From positions 62,001 through 126,000 of the forward strand of contig DATMBG010000051.1 in NCBI GenBank assembly GCA_035559535.1: DNA of 64,000 bases, read 5' to 3'. Of the stretch, positions 10,942 to 29,516 are shown piece after piece (the stretch's first letter is position 1; the number at the start of each line of letters is the position of its first letter). The DNA is from Candidatus Limnocylindrales bacterium. GTDB taxonomy: Bacteria > Moduliflexota > Moduliflexia > Moduliflexales > JAUQPW01. Made by a program: the position numbers and the translations under genes. A model generated the notes under the pieces. It was not told the DNA's origin. It did no database searches and saw nothing but the letters and a program-made list of their open reading frames with translations.

Positions 10942-12570
10942 ATGAAGAGAGGAAGTTTCAGAAGAGATTCCCTGTTTAAGATTCTGTTTGTTTTGGTCTT
11001 TTTCATCGGTTTTGTGGGGGAGATCGGCTTCTCGGAAGAGATAAGCGGACGTACGGTCGTTGAGACCAAGTGCGCGGTGTGTCATTTTCAAACGGATGGG
11101 ATGCGAAGCCGTATCTCGTTCCAAAGGAAAACGCCTGAAGGGTGGGAAATGACGGTCACACGGATGCAGATAGTTAACGGCTTACAAATTACTCCGGAAG
11201 AAAAAAAAGCCGTCATTAAATATTTGAGTGATGAATATGGACTGGCTCCGGAAGAAGTTAAAGATTATCAATACCTTCTAGAAAGGAAGGATTGGATTGT
11301 AGAAAAGCTTCCGGAGTCTTTATCTCTGGTCAAGACTGTCTGTACCCGGTGCCATAGTTTTGCCCGAGCCGCTCTTCAAAGACGGACATTGGAAGACTGG
11401 CTTTTGCATATAGATTTTCATGTAGCCGCCTTTCCAACCATAGAGTATCAAGCCGGGGGAAGAAATATTGATTGGTATGGAGACGCTAAAAAAGTGGCAG
11501 AGATTCTGGCCAAGGAATTCCCCTTTGAATCCGATGCCTGGACAAAATGGAAAAATAAACCCGACAAGCCAGACCCTCAGGGGAAATGGCGTGTGATCGG
11601 TTATCAACCCGGCGTGGGAAGTTACCAGGGTATTGTAGAAATAACTCGAGCCGGAGGAGATCATTACAAAGAAACCTTTACGGTGGAATATGAAAACGGA
11701 ACCAAACTTTCGGGAACCGGCGTTGGAACCCTCTATACGGGATTTCAATGGCGGGGCAGTGTGAAACTGGACAATGGAGGCAGGGCCAGGGAAGTTCACT
11801 TTCTCTCTGAAGATGGCAATACCTTATCCGGTCGATGGTTTTTACCGGATCACAGTGAAATAGGCGGAGAGGATATCGCCTATAAGATAGGAAGTGGATC
11901 CAAAGTACTAGCGGTAAGTCCAAAAGCTCTCAAAACATCCCAGGGAACCACTACCCTTAAGATTTTCGGTGTGGATCTTCCAAAAAATCTTCAAGCTAAA
12001 GATATCTCATTGGGAGAAGGACTTTCAGTAACCAAGATTAACCAGGCAGACGACCAGACTTTAACCCTTGAGGTTACCATAGATGGGAAGGCACCCATCG
12101 GAAAACGGAATGTAACCGTAGGTCAGATAACCGGTCTGGAACTCCTAAGGGTTTATGACAAGGTCGATTATATCAAAATTGTTCCGGATTCGGCAATTGC
12201 TCGTCTTGGGGGGACTACCGCACCCAAACAACTTCAGCAGTTTGAAGCTATTGCCTTTTCCAACGGTCCTGATGGAACCAGAGGGACCGAAGATGATATG
12301 GATTTGGGACTTGTGAAAGCTAAGTGGGAAGTTAAGGAATTCTTCCGAACCTTTGATGAAGAGGATGTCAAGTATATGGGATCTATCGATCAGAATGGGT
12401 TGTATACCCCAGGGGAAGAAGGCCCTAACCCGGAGAGACCTTTTGAAACCAATAATGCCGGAGATGCCTGGGTGGTAGCAACCTATCAACCGGAGGGAGC
12501 TAAACCCCTTATGGCTCGAGCGTTTTTAATTGTAACCCTTCCCAGATGGAATAAACCCCCTTTAAGATGA
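10942..12570 (+). CDS. qhpA: Quinohemoprotein amine dehydrogenase, diheme alpha subunit
   Basis: Large subunit of the periplasmic enzyme that oxidatively deaminates primary amines and passes electrons through two hemes c to a soluble carrier. A signal peptide covers about residues 1-31. Two CxxCH heme sites lie at 44-48 (CAVCH) and 134-138 (CTRCH) in the N-terminal cytochrome domain. The rest is beta-rich (YQPGVGSYQGIVEI, SGTGVGTLYTGFQWRGSVKL, later Ig-like segments), as in the known four-domain alpha subunit. Length 542 fits a precursor of this subunit. It is the first gene of the operon and has a good Shine-Dalgarno (GGGGGAG). The following gap holds a heptad hairpin. Confidence 0.95.
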   Translation: MKRGSFRRDSLFKILFVLVFFIGFVGEIGFSEEISGRTVVETKCAVCHFQTDGMRSRISFQRKTPEGWEMTVTRMQIVNGLQITPEEKKAVIKYLSDEYGLAPEEVKDYQYLLERKDWIVEKLPESLSLVKTVCTRCHSFARAALQRRTLEDWLLHIDFHVAAFPTIEYQAGGRNIDWYGDAKKVAEILAKEFPFESDAWTKWKNKPDKPDPQGKWRVIGYQPGVGSYQGIVEITRAGGDHYKETFTVEYENGTKLSGTGVGTLYTGFQWRGSVKLDNGGRAREVHFLSEDGNTLSGRWFLPDHSEIGGEDIAYKIGSGSKVLAVSPKALKTSQGTTTLKIFGVDLPKNLQAKDISLGEGLSVTKINQADDQTLTLEVTIDGKAPIGKRNVTVGQITGLELLRVYDKVDYIKIVPDSAIARLGGTTAPKQLQQFEAIAFSNGPDGTRGTEDDMDLGLVKAKWEVKEFFRTFDEEDVKYMGSIDQNGLYTPGEEGPNPERPFETNNAGDAWVVATYQPEGAKPLMARAFLIVTLPRWNKPPLR

Positions 12571-12660: not shown

Positions 12661-14112
12661 ATGCCTACCCTTCAACTTAATCCGGAAAACTTCCATGATG
12701 TGGAGGTCAACGGAAAAAGGTATGTAATGGCAGTGAGGGATACTTCCATCTTTGAGCTGGATGAAGCATCCTCGGTTTTATTAGATCACTTGAAATCCGA
12801 AAGGACGGTAACCTCAGAAAGCCTATTTCGGGTCATGGAAGCTAAATATTCCCGGGAGCAGATCCAGGAGATTTTAGAAGGACTGACAGAACTTCAGATT
12901 ATTACCCAAGATCCTGGAAAAGAAATACCTGTTAAAAAGAAAGTAGAGATCAAAAGCACTCCGCTCACAACCATTGTACTAAACGTCAGCAACAAGTGTA
13001 ATATGGGGTGCCACTACTGTTATGGGGAGGGATTCGAAGATCTTAAAACTGGCAAACAAATGGAATGGGAAGTGGCCAAACAGAGTGTGGATTTTCTGTT
13101 TGAGAACAGCGGATCCAATAAAAAATTGACGATAGTCTTCTTTGGAGGCGAGGCTTTACTTAACTTTAAACTCATCAAGCAGGTTGTACCCTATGCCAAA
13201 GACCTGGCAAAGAAGATGGGTAAATGGGTGGACTTTACCGTAACGACCAATGCGACCGTCCTTAATAAGGAGATGATTCATTTTCTAAAGGAACATCGAT
13301 TCGGGGTTACGGTCAGTATCGATGGCCCTAGGGAGATTCATGATCAGCAAAGGGTCTTTAAGGGAGGACAGGGAACCTACGACGTAATTGTTCCGAAGGT
13401 CAAGGAGTTGTTGAGTACCTATCGGTCTCGACCTATTGGAGCCAGGGTAACATTGACGCGAGGGGTTACCCAAGTGCAGAGGATTTTTGATCACCTCATG
13501 GAGTTGGGGTTCTATGAAGTCGGATTTTCGCCGGTTACCTCGGGAAGTAACCAAAGTTTTGCCTTAACGGTGGTCGATTTGGCGGAAATTTATGCAGGCT
13601 TCAGGGAACTGGCTCAAATTTTTCTAGAAAAGGCTTTGAAGGACGAGTACCTGGGCTTCTCTAATCTCAGTCAAATCGTCATGGACTTTTATCATGGAAC
13701 CAACAAATTCCTTCCCTGTGGAGCTGGAATCGGGTTACTGGATATAGACCCCAAAGGAGATGTTTATCTCTGCCATCGATTCCCAAGCACGCCGGGTTCT
13801 GAAGTCCACTCTTATGGAAACGTCCAGAAAGGTGTAGATTTTACGGGTCTTCGAATGTTTTTGGGGGAGGCCCATATTGATAATAAAGCAGATTGCAGCA
13901 AATGCTGGATTCGGCACCTTTGTGCAGGAGGCTGCTATCATGAAGCCTTTACACGATATGGAGATGCGCTGCATCCCAATTTGCATTATTGCGATATTTT
14001 AAGAAGCTGGCAAGAGATCGGGCTTCGAGTCTATTTAGAAATTATGGAGAAAAACCCCGGGTTTATTACAAAATATTTAGAACCAAGGAGGGCAAATTAT
14101 GAAACACTTTAA
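12661..14112 (+). CDS. qhpD: Radical SAM/SPASM peptide maturase of QHNDH
   Basis: QhpD installs the intrapeptidyl Cys-to-Asp/Glu thioether bonds in the gamma subunit QhpC in the cytoplasm. The N-terminal 90 residues look like a PqqD/RRE-type peptide-binding winged helix ([14 protein letters not shown]). The radical SAM cluster ligands are C113, C117 and C120 in [13 protein letters not shown], followed by a GGEALL motif. The SPASM region has C353, C371, C412, C415, C421 and C425 ([19 protein letters not shown]), enough for two auxiliary Fe-S clusters. Length 483 is normal. Its 3' end contains the ribosome binding site of qhpC and overlaps that gene by 14 bases, coupling enzyme and substrate. 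Confidence 0.96.
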
Positions 14113-14470
14113 ACCTGTGAATAAAAAGGCTCAAGCTACTTATCTTTCCCAGGGAGAAGAAACCGTTGACCCCAAGGAAGAGAGAACGGATCTAAAAGAA
14201 GAAAAGGCAGACGTGGTAGGTATGCAAATGCCTCTGGCCTGTGCCTCTACGCTGGATCCCGGATGGGAAGTAGATCCTTTTGGCGGGGTAGCTCAACTTT
14301 GTCAACCCATGGAATCCGACCTATATGGTTGTACAGACCCTTGCTGGTGGCCTGCGCAAGTCCCGGATAACCTGAATACCTATCCCAACTGGTCTGCCAG
14401 TTGTAATGCAGCCGTCCAGGATTGGCGAACGCTGGAAACGGTATTCCCGGAAGAGGAACCGGAAGCGTAA
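14099..14470 (+). CDS. qhpC: QHNDH gamma subunit precursor (CTQ peptide)
   Basis: Ribosomally made, heavily cross-linked catalytic subunit. If cleavage follows Gly41 (leader ends in DVVG) the mature chain has 82 residues, the size known for the Paracoccus enzyme. Every cross-linking residue then falls on its known number: C48-E57 (7-16), C68-D74 (27-33), C82-D90 (41-49), and C78 with W84 (37-43) for the cysteine tryptophylquinone in [13 protein letters not shown]. The leader (1-41) is charged and lacks a signal peptide, as expected for a QhpD/QhpE substrate. An extra cysteine, C102, is not assigned to a cross-link. AGGAGG lies inside the qhpD 3' end. Confidence 0.97.
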
Positions 14471-14479
14471 GGAATAGTA

Positions 14480-14602
14480 GGGGGGGTGTGGAAGTATGGG
14501 AGTGTTAAAAGAAGTGTGGGAGTGTGGGGGTGTGGGAGTGATACCCCCATACTCCCACACCCCCCCTACTTTCTTTCACACTCCCATACTCCCACACTAA
14601 GA
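14480..14602. repeat. Strand-symmetric 8-mer hairpin between qhpC and qhpB
   Basis: A G-rich arm (GTGGAAGTATGGGAGTGT... up to about 14540) faces a C-rich arm made of alternating ACTCCCAT and ACTCCCAC 8-mers. The element ends six bases before the qhpB ATG. The same dialect recurs at 15686-15825 and 29390-29516. Confidence 0.85.
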
Positions 14603-14607
14603 AGTTT

Positions 14608-15684
14608 ATGACTAACAAAACCAGGTCTGTTTGGATGGGATGGTTCTGTTTTGTGATTTTAGTGGGGATCTTCGTTTTGAACTCTGAGCATGCTCCAGGA
14701 AAAGATTTGCTGATTGCCGCAAGCCGTAGTAATTATGTTTATGTCATCGATGGAACAACCGATGAAATCATTAAAACTATCGAATTGCAGGGACGTGGAT
14801 TTCCTTTTAAGATTGCTACAGACCCCGCAGGAAAAAAGGTCTACGTCATTACCAATCGCTGGGAAACTATTGCCATTGTTGATATTGAACAGGGGAAACA
14901 GATAGATCAAATTGAGCTTTCAACACCCAACGAGCGGGTTAAGGCTATAGAAATTGCCGTTAATCGGGCTGGTGACAAGCTGTATGTTTATGAAGCTCCG
15001 GTAGAACTGGCATCGGACCGGTATAAAGTACTCCCAACCCGAATTCGAGTGATCGATCTGGCTACAAAGAAATTTATCCGGAGCTTCGAGGTCCCCAGAC
15101 AGGTCTCCCTTCTGTATTTCTCCACAGATGGAAAAAAGCTGTATGCCCAGGGTCCAGATATTTACGTCCTTGATCCCGATCAAGGTAAGGTTATCGATAC
15201 CATTCCCCTCAAAAATATAGGTATTACCGGTTTGGGAGAGGTGGATGTTCTTAATTTCTGGCCCCATTATGAACAAACCAATATCGTTTCCAATGTTTGG
15301 TCGGCTCCAGATACCATTAAAGGAAATTTTGTGGTAGGTATTATGAACCTGGATTTGAACAACGGCAATACCGAATGGATGGAGCTGGAAGTATTCAGTA
15401 ACATTATCTTTTCCTCGGTGATTTCCCCAACCGAGAAAAAAGCTTACCTGATTTATACCACGCTCAGCAAAGTGGACCTGGATCAAAAACGGATTACCGA
15501 CCGAGTTAAGCTGGATCATACCTACTACGCCGGAAACATCAGCAGTGATGGTAAGAAACTCTACCTGGGAGGAACCCAACGGGACATCGCCGTCTACGAT
15601 ACTTCCACCCTGAAGCAGTTAAAGAAAATTCTCCTTAAAGGAGATCAATCCGTTGCTTCACTTAAGATGATTAAAGTCCCTTAG
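14608..15684 (+). CDS. qhpB: QHNDH beta subunit (beta-propeller)
   Basis: Periplasmic seven-bladed propeller subunit of quinohemoprotein amine dehydrogenase. Residues 1-31 form a signal peptide (WFCFVILVGIFVLN). Blades are visible as YVTN-like repeats (YVYVIDGTTDEIIKTIEL, VYVITNRWETIAIVDIEQG, LYVYEAPVEL, IYVLDPDQGKVIDTIPL, LYLGGTQRDIAVYDTSTL). Length 358 agrees with the beta subunit precursor. In the known complex this subunit holds gamma against the diheme alpha. The ATG lacks a Shine-Dalgarno because a repeat hairpin ends just before it. Confidence 0.92.
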   Translation: MTNKTRSVWMGWFCFVILVGIFVLNSEHAPGKDLLIAASRSNYVYVIDGTTDEIIKTIELQGRGFPFKIATDPAGKKVYVITNRWETIAIVDIEQGKQIDQIELSTPNERVKAIEIAVNRAGDKLYVYEAPVELASDRYKVLPTRIRVIDLATKKFIRSFEVPRQVSLLYFSTDGKKLYAQGPDIYVLDPDQGKVIDTIPLKNIGITGLGEVDVLNFWPHYEQTNIVSNVWSAPDTIKGNFVVGIMNLDLNNGNTEWMELEVFSNIIFSSVISPTEKKAYLIYTTLSKVDLDQKRITDRVKLDHTYYAGNISSDGKKLYLGGTQRDIAVYDTSTLKQLKKILLKGDQSVASLKMIKVP

Positions 15685-15685
15685 G

Positions 15686-15825
15686 GTCTAGGAGTGTGGG
15701 GGTATATGAGTATGGGCGTGTGGAAGTTGTGGAAGTATGGGGGTGTGGGGGTATAGGCGTATAAGTACTTAGCCTCCCATACTCCCACACTCCCATACTC
15801 CCACACTCCCATACTTCCATATTTC
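15686..15825. repeat. Strand-symmetric 8-mer hairpin upstream of the 311-aa gene
   Basis: A G-rich arm with GTGGGGGTAT and GTATGGGCGTG units is followed by a C-rich arm of ACTCCCAC/ACTCCCAT 8-mers, ending in TTCCATATTTCCATT directly at the ATG at 15830. Confidence 0.85.
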
Positions 15826-15829
15826 CATT

Positions 15830-16765
15830 ATGGAATGGGCCATTCTCCTCAAAGAACCCGGAGATCTGAACCGTTTAGAAGAATTCGGTACCTTTCAAAG
15901 GATCTCCCAGACAGAGCTGGAGGACGAAGATCCGCTGAATCCTTACCGGAGGCTTTTCTACCAACAGGTTTCCAAATACTTTAACTCCTTGGTCTTCACA
16001 AGGGTTTATTTCGGGAATGAGTTCTGCCAGCATTTGATCCCAAGTTTGGGTAAGCTCAAACGGGTTTATGAAGACTGCAAGGAAAGAGGAGTTAATTTTT
16101 CTTTTGTGACCCCTTATGTCACCGATAAAGGGATCAAGCGACTTAGGCCGCTGTTGGATTTCCTTGCGGACTCCGCCCCTCACACAGAGGTTATTGTAAA
16201 CGACTGGGGCGTTTTGAGAATGCTCAAACGGAACTATCCTGAATTACAACCGGTCCTAGGCAGACTGATGAACAAAATGCTACGGGATCCCAGGGTAACA
16301 GGCTTATATAAGCAGACCGCTCCGGAGACTGTGATAAAAACCCTCAATGAACCTGCGATGGCTGCAACCCTTTATCAACAATTCTTGACAGGATTGGGAG
16401 TCAGGACCTTAGAGTTTGATGTCCTTTTACAGGGGATGAACTTTTCCAGCCTGGCAGATAGCGGTCTTACCGTCTCGGTCTACGTTCCCTATGGTTTTGT
16501 AGCTACCGGGCGTGTCTGTATGATTGGTTCCCTGCATCTCCCAAAACCTAAAAAGTTTGATGTGGATATCAGGTGTTCCTTTGAATGCCAGGAATATACC
16601 ACCGAGTTACATTATACTTCGCCGGTCAACAAAGTTGATCAGAAGTATTTTCAAAAGGGGACAACGGTTTTTTATACCCATAGCAGTGAAATGTTGGCCT
16701 CCACCTTTGAAGAAGCCCTCCGGGGGAGAATACACCGGATTATTTATCAACCCGGATTAATGTGA
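15830..16765 (+). CDS. QHNDH-operon protein, U32/UbiV-like candidate
   Basis: Soluble protein of 311 residues with no signal peptide and no FAD or NAD Rossmann motif. I do not recognise it as any canonical Qhp protein. The middle segment (FSFVTPYVTDKGIKRL, then TEVIVNDWGVLRMLKRNYP) has the alpha/beta rhythm and the VNDWG turn seen in U32/UbiV-type proteins. Cysteines are C66, C83, C230, C249 and C253. The C-x3-C pair near the C-terminus (RCSFECQ) plus upstream cysteines resembles the Fe-S ligand layout of UbiV. It sits between qhpB and an obvious U32 gene, so the two probably work as a heteromer, as UbiU and UbiV do. I infer, but cannot show, a role in tryptophan hydroxylation during CTQ formation. 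Confidence 0.6.
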   Translation: MEWAILLKEPGDLNRLEEFGTFQRISQTELEDEDPLNPYRRLFYQQVSKYFNSLVFTRVYFGNEFCQHLIPSLGKLKRVYEDCKERGVNFSFVTPYVTDKGIKRLRPLLDFLADSAPHTEVIVNDWGVLRMLKRNYPELQPVLGRLMNKMLRDPRVTGLYKQTAPETVIKTLNEPAMAATLYQQFLTGLGVRTLEFDVLLQGMNFSSLADSGLTVSVYVPYGFVATGRVCMIGSLHLPKPKKFDVDIRCSFECQEYTTELHYTSPVNKVDQKYFQKGTTVFYTHSSEMLASTFEEALRGRIHRIIYQPGLM

Positions 16766-18088: not shown

Positions 18089-19807
18089 GTGAAAATGCTG
18101 GGGGTTTTTTTCCTCAGCATCTTGGCCACTCTCTTCGGGCTTGGTTATCCCCTCTTTACCAAATTTTTCATCGATGAAGTCTTACTCAAAGGAAACACGC
18201 AACTCCTGGTTACTCTGACCGTCGGGATGTTTGTTATAGCCTTGCTCGGTTTCCTGCTGGCCGGTGTAAACCGGTATTTATATACCTGGATTTCGGCCCG
18301 AATTCTCTTCGATATGCGAATGGCCCTATACCGGCATCTCCAAGGGCTTTCTTTGCGATTTTATACCCGAACCAAGATCGGGGAAATATTAGCCCGAATC
18401 AATACCGACCTGGCCGAAATTCAGCGAATTACGACCGATGTCCTCCTCAGTTCCTTCACTAATCTCTTGACCCTTATGGGCACCCTTGGATTTCTCCTCT
18501 GGCTTAACTACAGGCTCTTCCTGGTCAGTAGCCTCCTTCTTCCATGGGTTGCACTGGGATTACGATATTTTCGTCCCAGAATAGCGGATAAGGCTCGAGA
18601 AATTCGAGATCGAAATGCCGATCTGGGGAGTTTTTTGATAGAAACCTTTCAGGGGATTAAGCTCATCAAAGCTTTTGGAGCTGAAGAACTGGAAGTAGAG
18701 AGGTTTGCCAGGAAGCATGAAGCTTACATTCAGGCAGTTCTCGATCTCCAAAAGCTTTCCATCTTTTCCGGAGGTATTTCCGGGTTGCTCCTTCCTACAA
18801 CTTCTCTCCTGGTATTTCTCTATGGTGGACATTTGGTCATTACAGGAAGTATGACCCTGGGTGATTTGATTGCTTTTTCAGCCTATCTCATCCGGGCTTT
18901 TGGTCCTTTACAAGGTCTTTTGGGCCTCTATGTTCAACTGCAAAGAGCCCGGATTTCTCTCCAGAGGGTCTTTGAGTTGATGACTTTGGAACCCGAAGTT
19001 AAAGAAAAGGAAGGGGCAATCTCACCGGAAAGTATCAAAGGAGAAGTGGAATTTGAAGAGGTTTCCTTTGAATATGAGCCGGGTAAGCCGGTCCTTCAAA
19101 ACGTGAGTTTTCGTGTTCCGGCAGGAACAACCGTTGCCATTGTAGGCCCTAGCGGGATGGGAAAAACCACCCTTATCGATCTCCTCCTCCGCTTTTATGA
19201 TCCTCAAAAAGGCTCCATTAAGATCGATGGAATAGATCTTCGGGATTTGAAAATCCGATTTCTACGCGATCATATAGGGGTTGTTGGCCAGGAGACTTTC
19301 TTGTTTCATGCCACCATCGAGGAAAATATCCGATACGGTAAGAACAGTGCTTCCCGGGAAGAGGTCATTCGGGCTGCCCAGGCAGCCTATATCCATGATT
19401 TCATCGAGTCTTTACCCCAGAAGTATGAAACCATCGTAGGAGAACGGGGCGTTCGCCTCTCCGGCGGGGAGAGACAGCGTGTTGCCATAGCTCGGGCCAT
19501 TTTGAAATCCCCCCGGATTCTGATCCTGGATGAAGCAACGTCGTCTCTAGACTGGATGTCTGAACAATATGTGCGGACTATGCTGGCCGGGCTTATGAGG
19601 GGGCGAACGACCATTATCGTTACTCACCGTCTCTCTTCCGTCCAGAATGCCCATCAAATTCTTGTTCTTCATGAGGGTCAAATCATTCAGCAGGGTATTC
19701 ATGAAGATCTCCTGAAAGTAGAAGGATTATATCGGCAACTTTATGAAGCAGAGGTCCAAACCCGGAATCGTTCTACAGGAGATCCGCGCCCTGAAACCCT
19801 GGATTAA
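18089..19807 (+). CDS. qhpF: ABC transporter, permease-ATPase fusion (QhpF-like)
   Basis: Inner-membrane half-transporter of the ABCB/MsbA type. In the known qhp system QhpF is the exporter linked to QHNDH assembly. About six membrane helices occupy residues 1-290. The nucleotide-binding domain has Walker A GPSGMGKTT at 353-361, the signature LSGGERQRVAIARA, Walker B ILILDEATSSLD and the H-loop IVTHRLSS. The first conventional start is the GTG at 18089, but the frame stays open upstream to 18023 and encodes ISHLLHFLRPYYVK, which is the usual N-terminus of this family. The true start is therefore uncertain and may be a non-standard codon. It is followed 15 bases later by qhpE. Confidence 0.88.
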   Translation: MKMLGVFFLSILATLFGLGYPLFTKFFIDEVLLKGNTQLLVTLTVGMFVIALLGFLLAGVNRYLYTWISARILFDMRMALYRHLQGLSLRFYTRTKIGEILARINTDLAEIQRITTDVLLSSFTNLLTLMGTLGFLLWLNYRLFLVSSLLLPWVALGLRYFRPRIADKAREIRDRNADLGSFLIETFQGIKLIKAFGAEELEVERFARKHEAYIQAVLDLQKLSIFSGGISGLLLPTTSLLVFLYGGHLVITGSMTLGDLIAFSAYLIRAFGPLQGLLGLYVQLQRARISLQRVFELMTLEPEVKEKEGAISPESIKGEVEFEEVSFEYEPGKPVLQNVSFRVPAGTTVAIVGPSGMGKTTLIDLLLRFYDPQKGSIKIDGIDLRDLKIRFLRDHIGVVGQETFLFHATIEENIRYGKNSASREEVIRAAQAAYIHDFIESLPQKYETIVGERGVRLSGGERQRVAIARAILKSPRILILDEATSSLDWMSEQYVRTMLAGLMRGRTTIIVTHRLSSVQNAHQILVLHEGQIIQQGIHEDLLKVEGLYRQLYEAEVQTRNRSTGDPRPETLD

Positions 19808-19822
19808 AAACTCTGAAAGCCT

Positions 19823-20545
19823 ATGCCTGAAAGTTTTAATTTCTCCGACTATACCGGTAAGGGCGTGAAGGTTGCCCTTATCGACAGTGGTATTAACCCG
19901 GTTCATTCCCATGTGAAACGGGTAAGTGGAGGGATCAGTCTGATCCTGGACGGGACGGGTAAAATTTCCTGGGGAACCAATTATCAGGATCAGATTGGTC
20001 ATGGCACGGCTCTTGCCGGTATTTTTCGTAAGAAAGCACCCGACGTGGACCTTTATGCCGTTAAAATATTTCATCGAATCCTAAAAACCCAGATCGAGGT
20101 TTTAAAGAAGGCTATAGAATGGGCCCTTCAGGCAGACATGAAAATCATTAATCTCAGTCTGGGAACCTCTAACCCGGACCACGAAACCCCCTTAAGAGCC
20201 CTCTGCGATGAGGCGGCAAGTCGAAAGGTTCTGATAGTCGCTTCGGGATTTCCAGAACAGAAAGCCGGTTATCCGGCTGTTTTTCCCAATGTGATCGGTG
20301 TAGCCGGAGATGAGCGTTGTGGCTGGGATGGTTATTTTTATGTAAAGGATCACCCTATCCCCTTCCGAGCTCATCCACAACCCCGACCGATTCCTGGAAT
20401 TCCCCAAGAACGAAATTTTAAGGGACATAGCTTCGCATCAGCCCATATCGGAGCTCTCATGGCCCGCATCGTAGAGAAATATCCCACAGCAGATTATCTG
20501 CAAGTAAAGGAGATTCTCATCTCCCATAGCCGTCCCCCTTTTTAA
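19823..20545 (+). CDS. qhpE: Subtilisin-like protease QhpE (leader peptidase for QhpC)
   Basis: Cytoplasmic subtilase of 240 residues that in the Paracoccus system removes the QhpC leader after QhpD has cross-linked it. The catalytic triad is visible: D21 in VALIDSGINP, H60 in IGHGTALAGIF and S203 in GHSFASAHIGAL. The oxyanion/substrate strand region is IINLSLGTSNP, and VLIVASGF is the usual GN-containing segment with altered residues. There is no signal peptide or propeptide, as expected for an intracellular processing enzyme. It is the last gene of the operon, directly after qhpF. Confidence 0.93.
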   Translation: MPESFNFSDYTGKGVKVALIDSGINPVHSHVKRVSGGISLILDGTGKISWGTNYQDQIGHGTALAGIFRKKAPDVDLYAVKIFHRILKTQIEVLKKAIEWALQADMKIINLSLGTSNPDHETPLRALCDEAASRKVLIVASGFPEQKAGYPAVFPNVIGVAGDERCGWDGYFYVKDHPIPFRAHPQPRPIPGIPQERNFKGHSFASAHIGALMARIVEKYPTADYLQVKEILISHSRPPF

Positions 20546-21241: not shown

Positions 21242-21979
21242 ATGACAGAAAAAATCCTTCACATACACTACGAATTTAACCTAAAAAACGGAGTTCAAAA
21301 ACAATTTTCCCTTAACTTATCAGGTCCTACTCTGGCCCTGGAATCTGAACCAAAGCCATCCTATCCCGAATGGACGGTATTAACCCACCATCAGTGTTCC
21401 AACTGTCCACTCCATCCAGAACAACATCCTTATTGCCCTGTAGCGGTAAATCTGTCGGAAGTCATTGAATTTTTCAAGGACTTTTTATCTTTTGAAGAAG
21501 CTGAGGTAAGAATATATACCGAAGTCCGGGAGTATTATACCCGGACTCCCCTTCAAGAGGGTCTCAGTTCTTTAATCGGTCTTATCATGGTTACCAGTGG
21601 CTGTCCCATCCTGAATAAACTAAGACCCATGGCCTATACGCATCTTCCTTTTTCTTCCCTGGAAGAGACCAAGTATCGGGCTATTTCCATGTACCTGTTG
21701 GCCCAATATTTTTTATACAGAGAAGGGAAGAAACCCGATTGGGAAATCAAGAATCTGGTCCATATCTATGAGGAGATTATAAAAGTAAATCAAGATTTTT
21801 CTCGCCGGCTGGCGAGTATTTGTCCTAAGGATGCCAGTCTTAATGCCCTTGCAAGCCTGAGCTGCTTCGCTTCCATAACCTCTCTTTCTATCAAGGATGA
21901 TTATTTAGAGGATATAAAAGCGCTTTTTACCGTTTATCTGGATGAAAAAAACCTCTCCTCAGAAGTTAACCCATCTTGA
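21242..21979 (+). CDS. Uncharacterised protein with CxxCP...CP motif
   Basis: The 245-residue soluble protein has a beta-rich N-terminal segment (KILHIHYEFNLKNGVQKQFSLNL) and then a compact cysteine motif, C52-S-N-C55-P and Y-C65-P-V-A, likely to bind a metal. A mostly helical C-terminal region carries further cysteines (GCPILNKLRPMAYTHLPFSSLEE). It resembles a widespread family of uncharacterised proteins with this CxxCP/CPxA pattern, possibly DUF6901, but I cannot verify the name. GGAGAG lies 8 bases before the ATG. It has no clear operon partner. Confidence 0.75.
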   Translation: MTEKILHIHYEFNLKNGVQKQFSLNLSGPTLALESEPKPSYPEWTVLTHHQCSNCPLHPEQHPYCPVAVNLSEVIEFFKDFLSFEEAEVRIYTEVREYYTRTPLQEGLSSLIGLIMVTSGCPILNKLRPMAYTHLPFSSLEETKYRAISMYLLAQYFLYREGKKPDWEIKNLVHIYEEIIKVNQDFSRRLASICPKDASLNALASLSCFASITSLSIKDDYLEDIKALFTVYLDEKNLSSEVNPS

Positions 21980-29389: not shown

Positions 29390-29516
29390 GTATGGGAGTA
29401 TGAGGGTGTAGAAGTATAGAAGTGTGGGAGTATGGGAGTATGGAAGTATGGGGGTTTTATCTCCCACACTCCCATACTCCCGCCCCCCTATACTCCCATA
29501 CTCCCATACTTTTAGT
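29390..29516. repeat. Strand-symmetric 8-mer hairpin before the BON gene
   Basis: G-rich units (AGTATGGGAGTATGAGGGTG...) up to about 29455 are mirrored by C-rich units (ACTCCCATACTCCCGCCCCC...). The unit is the same ACTCCCAT/ACTCCCAC as in the qhp operon, 14 kb away. Confidence 0.85.

Follow-up and report, generated by a model that had tools for sequence, protein, structure and literature searches.

The locus examined here is most likely a variant of the qhp operon in which a gene pair resembling UbiU and UbiV seems to replace the O2-using tryptophan dihydroxylase, a reading that we consider probable. It lies within a stretch of 64,000 nucleotides (hereafter 'the window', meaning the whole stretch that was analysed), in which the qhp genes run in the order A-D-C-B-V-U-F-E:

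10942-12570, + strand: qhpA, QHNDH alpha subunit (di-haem); TIGR03908, 544 bits (cut-off 274.35), with four Pfam QHNDH alpha domains
12661-14112, + strand: qhpD, radical SAM thioether-forming maturase; TIGR03906, 589.7 bits (cut-off 453)
14099-14470, + strand: qhpC, precursor of QhpC (QHNDH gamma subunit); NF037958; leader 1-41, mature chain 42-123
14608-15684, + strand: qhpB, QHNDH beta subunit; TIGR03907, 292.4 bits (cut-off 223.2)
15830-16765, + strand: qhpV (named here), 311 aa, divergent UbiV-like second subunit; no family above cut-off; invariant C66, C230, C249 and C253
16870-17874, + strand: qhpU (named here), 334 aa, U32 family, UbiU-like; PF01136, 128.4 bits; eight invariant Cys
18089-19807, + strand: qhpF, ABC exporter; Pfam ABC_membrane and ABC_tran; matches open reading frames of other qhp clusters
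19823-20545, + strand: qhpE, subtilisin-like leader protease; NF049966, 160.2 bits (cut-off 165, just under); PF00082, 72 bits

Measured against the codons of the sister genome (G001), dN/dS was 0.081 for qhpV, 0.074 for qhpU and 0.060-0.067 for qhpA, qhpC and qhpD; qhpV and qhpU are under purifying selection like those three genes. A DUF6901 protein (269 bits) is encoded just downstream of qhpE, at 21242-21979. The spacers at 14476-14598, 15686-15828 and 29416-29483 are filled by 8-bp units (ACTCCCAC/T), which in the first two are arranged as inverted repeats (arms of 28-43 nt); nine matches to a 24-base pattern made of three such units occur in the window and none in 100 shuffles of it.

A sequence-only reading of this DNA had concentrated on the frame at 14099-14470, calling it a QhpC precursor that keeps every cross-link residue. 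That identification is now backed by the QH_gamma score, by alignment to solved subunits and by relatives. The frame encodes 123 residues, begins with ATG and overlaps the 3' end of qhpD; it scored 140.4 bits against NF037958 (QH_gamma, cut-off 50), which places it in that family, and 135 bits against PF08992, and it sits among qhpA, qhpB, qhpD, qhpF and qhpE (the last just under its model cut-off). Residues 46-119 align without gaps to residues 5-78 of the gamma subunits 1jju_C and 1jmx_G, and this alignment over 74 residues fixes the offset between precursor and mature numbering at 41. A scripted check at that offset placed all eight cross-link and CTQ residues as claimed (C48 on mature position 7, E57 on 16, C68 on 27, D74 on 33, C78 on 37, C82 on 41, W84 on 43 and D90 on 49) and recovered the claimed mature chain of 82 residues.

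The same eight positions are invariant in 101 of 101 distinct QhpC sequences. Since the pattern used to collect these sequences preset Trp43, Cys37 and Cys41, a preceding Asp and Cys, and either Glu or Gln at position 16, the main free tests in this census are C7 and D49, together with the choice between Glu and Gln. The census comprises distinct sequences with a recognisable start (four loci were dropped for want of one), and frames missing the pattern fall outside the count. Relative to the 1jju/1jmx system, the window QhpC has all eight residues in common and differs in its leader of 41 rather than 28 residues, in an extra cysteine (mature Cys61) and in having Gly rather than Ala before the cut. 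The observation about QhpC is right, and on its own it describes another member of a known family.

The leader had been described as differing in length from that of Paracoccus (about 28) and as rich in Glu and Lys, and both descriptions hold: it has 13 residues beyond the usual 28, and Glu accounts for 6 of its 41 residues, Lys for 7 and Asp for 3. Of the 101 QhpC, 63 have a leader of 28 residues; those of the window and G001 are 41 long, one (L159) has 42, and the remainder have 20-34. In the window and G001 the extra residues sit between DVVG and an N-terminal MKHFxPxNxKA motif. In related plasmid operons, the precursors have the N-terminal MKH..P.N.KA in common with QhpC, and likewise a V-x-A|M motif. 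In the 101 aligned precursors, Ala precedes the predicted cut in 87 and Gly in 6, and Met or Leu follows it in 100, columns that fit cleavage after Gly41. An acidobacterial relative (L013), whose QhpD is 58% identical to that of the window, has DVVG|LQQPLGC after exactly 28 residues. Given this census and the 28-residue DVVG leader of L013, a cut after Gly41 is the best reading of the precursor sequences, and the long leader is a local feature. Long leaders are rare but not unique, because L159 (genome G216, from the phylum of G010) has 42 residues with a normal N-terminal motif and a different composition, an independent long leader.

The QhpC-centred finding was thus correct as far as it went but silent on the most unusual point of the locus, which is that QhpG was not found and that a U32-type pair lies in the operon. 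PMC7876137 describes QhpG as an O2- and FAD-using flavoprotein monooxygenase that supplies both hydroxyls of Trp43 and is essential in the bacteria studied. It is absent from the annotated genes of the window operon, and in the genome from which the window comes (G000; assembly 95.76% complete) the best protein reached 113.7 bits against the QhpG model (NF049967), well short of its cut-off of 240. The sister genome agrees, with QhpG not found there either.

QhpU belongs to the U32 family, with 128.4 bits against PF01136 (gathering score 22.4). It falls outside UbiU proper, scoring 88.8 bits against a cut-off of 440 for the UbiU model NF047963; a profile comparison by hhalign nevertheless gave 99.9% against UbiU. 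QhpV is more diverged. It had no NCBIfam or Pfam match at E 0.001, and it scored only 11.4 bits (E 0.19, cut-off 22.4) against PF01136, which matched just one of six members at all and so leaves it outside the U32 model; by hhalign its profile gave 3% against UbiV and 88% against QhpU. Published work describes UbiUV as O2-independent hydroxylases of the ubiquinone ring (PMC10470549), with one [4Fe-4S] cluster per subunit bound by CXnCX12CX3C in UbiV and CX6CX16CX38C in UbiU (PMC6747719). The new pair resembles them in being a two-gene pair, in the U32 domain of QhpU and in conserved cysteines of Fe-S type in both proteins. All 18 QhpV sequences keep C66, C230, C249 and C253, in the pattern C-Xn-C-X18-C-X3-C (X18 in 17 of 18, X3 in all). 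In a MAFFT alignment of 18 QhpV and 6 UbiV, the QhpV residues G62, C66, D125, C249 and C253 line up with G35, C39, D96, C193 and C197 of UbiV, and C230 lies three columns from UbiV C180, the spacing being X18 as against X12. QhpU has eight cysteines that are invariant in 19 of 19 sequences. Three of them (C184, C191 and C203; C-X6-C-X9-13-C in all 19) align with UbiU C169, C176 and C193, and the core residues H113, S115, R137, P141 and R142 are likewise shared with UbiU. No QhpU cysteine occupies the column of the fourth ligand, UbiU C232; C259 and C262 of QhpU are invariant.

Several features set the pair apart from UbiU and UbiV. The six UbiU compared have five cysteines (C5 and the four ligands) as against the eight of QhpU; the gene order is V-U in the window and U-V in E. 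coli; and an NCBIfam and Pfam scan recognised no SCP2 protein (UbiT) between qhpA and qhpE. In a tree of 53 U32-type rows, QhpU, QhpV, UbiU, UbiV, TrhP and RlhA each form one group, with the QhpU and QhpV groups separated from the other four (support 100/99 and 100/100); because of long branches, the placing of QhpV relative to UbiV is unsafe. TrhP and RlhA have the U32 domain in common with QhpU and, according to PMC10470549, hydroxylate macromolecules (tRNA and 23S rRNA), their substrates being RNA. AlphaFold models built from five sequences gave a mean pLDDT of 71 for QhpU and 66 for QhpV. The best solved fold for the QhpU model was a U32 peptidase, 5d88 (E 2e-6; modest TM-scores of 0.38/0.50), and Foldseek found no match at E <= 0.001 for that of QhpV. 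In VIA-align the QhpV model matched TIM barrels of many families (Z 11-12), with 5d88 absent among the 50 entries listed; the model therefore looks TIM-barrel-like, which fits a U32-like barrel and names no family.

We compared the distribution of the pair with that of QhpG across 79 QHNDH genomes. Both QhpV and QhpG were searched for in all 79, and 20 neighbourhoods were read. QhpV was found in 19 and not in 60. Four genomes in which the standard QhpG was missing (G197, G235, G251 and G362) have in its stead a short QhpG-like flavoprotein encoded in the cluster, as does a Novosphingobium plasmid (L012). In the phylum of G010 this protein has 334-351 aa and is encoded beside qhpE (L213:5560-6576, L214:14175-15203, L215:13724-14728 and L216:14165-15220); the L213 copy scored 68.5 bits against the QhpG model and had no Pfam match, and the plasmid copy is a tblastn match (42%) at L012:12934-13899. 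When either kind of flavoprotein is counted, 9 of the 79 genomes have none, and QhpV is present in 8 of these 9 as opposed to 11 of the 70 with one (Fisher p 2e-5). The exception among the nine is G1116, in which QhpV was not found and the qhp cluster is on a 5.4-kb contig.

A smaller sample of 38 genomes was drawn by QhpC only and regardless of V, with three centres left out (from the phylum of G010, QhpC-based sampling took 29 of 396 genomes; from the order of G005, 5 of the 399 that exceeded the cut-off; and from the class of G004, 7 of 385). Here the cluster includes the pair in 4 of the 5 genomes that have no QhpG-like flavoprotein and in 0 of the 33 that do (p 7e-5); counted anywhere in the genome, the pair is present in 4 of 5 and 4 of 33, respectively (p 0.004). 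These tests, like that on the 79 genomes, ignore relatedness. The short flavoprotein was counted as QhpG-like after the first tables had been viewed, and the pattern sharpened thereafter; missing full-length QhpG alone gave p = 0.07 in the 38 genomes and p = 0.002 in the 79. We set aside full-length QhpG as the sole predictor of the pair, the four genomes named above having the short flavoprotein instead.

The short protein was searched for in 11 genomes, namely the nine others without QhpG, G197 and G005. It was not found in the eight that have V and no QhpG-like flavoprotein, where the best score was 35.8 bits (G269; 22.1 bits in the window genome). Borderline cases were assigned as follows: G295 (two adjacent pieces, 180.5 and 128.6 bits), G1217 (two pieces, 146.9 and 127 bits) and G1208 (121.6 bits, a 118-aa open frame) were counted as QhpG-positive, and G269 (170.5 bits, unlinked) as negative; G753 (23.2 bits, below cut-off) was left out, and L081 lay outside the QhpV and QhpG searches. 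In Marinobacterium nitratireducens (L100), the only strong QhpG match, G009:C3:217010-218326, has one TGA within the matched stretch.

Hydroxylation of the tryptophan in these organisms by a MauG-type di-haem enzyme, by the haems of QhpA or by an unlinked flavoprotein is a reading that we regard as unlikely. CCP_MauG proteins occur in 6 of the 8 genomes that have V and no QhpG-like flavoprotein, but there was no such match in G004 or G722. The QhpG candidates were all scored in G000, G001, G004 and G010, and the best 21 per genome from a first look in G269, G299, G387, G722 and G1116. G269 has an unlinked 399-aa flavoprotein frame (170.5 bits to the QhpG alignment), and the window genome a 387-aa FAD protein, its best match; the latter, however, is encoded on another contig and passes a geranylgeranyl-reductase family model, and the search in G004 gave at most 28 bits. 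A want of O2 is not an obvious reason for the missing QhpG, because the tested carriers encode COX1-family (terminal-oxidase-family) proteins: these were found in 9 of 9 genomes, comprising Thauera G005 and the eight that have V but no QhpG-like flavoprotein. The idea that carriers are strict anaerobes is thus unsupported.

The linkage of the pair to qhp genes recurs. In a scan with a QhpD alignment, the flanks of the best 80 of at least 582 relatives were examined for V and U by tblastn, and five (L015, L025, L027, L056 and L075) had either the pair or V at the edge of a contig; 40 of the 80 loci (39 named Pseudomonas and one Marinobacterium), which were not part of the whole-genome searches, had neither V nor U in their flanks by tblastn. 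Whole-genome searches, which covered QHNDH genomes only, added further carriers, among them Motiliproteus (G1192), a gammaproteobacterium; Thauera sp. 28 (L056) is a betaproteobacterium. Acidobacteria and alpha-, beta- and gammaproteobacteria are among the lineages with the pair in a qhp cluster. By genome, such clusters occur in G000/G001, G004 (a Rhodospirillales MAG), G005 (Thauera sp. 28), G006, G007, G010, G269, G299, G387 and G722, in G008 and G1214 (both split over contigs), and in one of two qhp clusters of G1192. The two Motiliproteus clusters are L210 and L019; one has QhpG, and the other reads E-V-U, with no flavoprotein seen in a stretch that starts inside qhpD. In G010 and G387, one locus is A-D-C-B and another D-C-V-U-F-E, neither A nor B being recognised in the latter stretch. 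Judged from gene arrangement, these two genomes best illustrate a functional tie of the pair to maturation and export of the gamma subunit.

It is very improbable that the pair are chance neighbours, a second UbiUV copy of ubiquinone type in a qhp-rich region. QhpU is indeed a U32 protein and shares the UbiU core residues, but the linkage recurs across several phyla and classes with differing gene orders, both proteins group apart from UbiU, UbiV, TrhP and RlhA, and G004-G008 have separate UbiU and UbiV genes. Moreover, the QhpV of L027 had no match in 72,556 plasmid records, whereas its QhpU finds UbiU-like genes in the same records, many annotated beside SCP2 genes.

A role of the pair in QHNDH maturation other than tryptophan hydroxylation (for instance adding a further modification, supplying QhpD with electrons or carrying out the final oxidation), with Trp84 hydroxylated by an enzyme encoded elsewhere, is possible but in our estimate doubtful. 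It would suit the clusters in which the pair coexists with QhpG (G005, G006, G007, G008 and probably G1214, which is split over contigs), and also the five invariant QhpU cysteines beyond the three aligned with UbiU ligands. Coexistence would equally fit a pair of aerobic and anaerobic routes, as with UbiIHF and UbiUV, and another job leaves unexplained the presence of the pair in the clusters of four of five genomes without a QhpG-like flavoprotein and of none of 33 with one. The pair may have another role in G051, G126, G201, G263 and G1217, since these genomes encode QhpG and the contig that bears the pair has no recognised qhp genes. The first four are the flavoprotein-bearing members of the 38-genome sample that have V; in them V and qhpC are on different contigs, and linkage was not seen. 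In G269, an FGE/sulfatase-modifying-factor-like gene (L200:15078-16253) lies right after qhpE in the cluster that has V and U, and we count it against hydroxylation by QhpU and QhpV.

Replacement of QhpG by the pair remains our preferred explanation. It draws on the gene content, the searches in which QhpG was not found, the recurrence and linkage of the pair and its conserved cysteines, while the roles of QhpD, QhpE and QhpF and the need for a dihydroxylase come from published work on the studied enzymes; we infer the action on Trp84, the independence of O2, the presence of Fe-S clusters and the oxygen donor. The product of the operon would be a CTQ-containing quinohemoprotein amine dehydrogenase. 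QhpD would bind the QhpC leader and make three Cys-Asp/Glu thioethers, after which Trp84 (mature Trp43) would be dihydroxylated at C6 and C7 by QhpU-QhpV instead of QhpG. By analogy with UbiU-UbiV, the pair may carry out an O2-independent hydroxylation of the aromatic ring with a donor other than O2, prephenate being the candidate named for their relatives. QhpE would then cut after Gly41 and QhpF export the mature chain, with oxidation to CTQ presumably taking place together with the haem subunit.

On balance we lean towards a wider proposal: QhpU-QhpV would be an O2-independent peptidyl-tryptophan dihydroxylase, to our knowledge the first U32-type pair to act on a protein side chain, which stands in for QhpG in some lineages and serves as its backup in others, allowing a tryptophylquinone cofactor to be made in the absence of O2. 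QhpU may also hold a second Fe-S cluster; its five additional invariant cysteines (C26, C259, C262, C324 and C330) are enough for one. QhpU-QhpV and QhpG would share the proposed reaction and occur in the same kind of operon, but they are unrelated protein families, and QhpG uses O2 and FAD (PMC7876137). The same paper compares QhpG with MauG and LodB/GoxB as makers of tryptophylquinones; none of these is a U32 protein. In the open-licence PMC literature, the scope of our search, we found no paper linking U32 or UbiUV-type chemistry with tryptophylquinone formation. If the proposal is true, an O2-independent route would explain cofactor synthesis when cytoplasmic O2 is scarce, the chemistry of UbiUV, TrhP and RlhA would extend from quinones and RNA to protein, and cross-linked QhpC would be a soluble, genetically encoded substrate for in vitro study of the poorly understood U32 hydroxylation.

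In G010, a DAHP synthase-prephenate dehydratase fusion (L205:3601-5286) is encoded about 3 kb upstream of the D-C-V-U-F-E locus, and a similar-looking frame is at L203:3290-4975; the fusion is of note only because prephenate is a suspected oxygen donor of U32 hydroxylases.

The additional cysteine of the window QhpC, Cys102, exists as reported, but its description as unassigned does not stand: it is mature Cys61 and is present in 37 of the 101 QhpC, which have five mature cysteines as against four in the other 64. Its carriers are the window genus, every census sequence from the phylum sample of G010, the Acidobacteria L013, L034 and L052, one Novosphingobium (L012) and the divergent G722, so that it is found mostly in non-proteobacterial QhpC. 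We ruled it out as a marker of QhpG-less organisms, QhpG-bearing genomes of the phylum of G010 having Cys61 too. Asp is found at position 67 in 37 of 37 QhpC with Cys61 and in 47 of 64 without it. A fourth thioether, Cys61-Asp67, is conceivable from these sequences, as is a structural role for the cysteine; since Asp67 is frequent without Cys61, we treat the thioether only as a lead. The spacing of the two residues, i+6, is that of C27 and D33.
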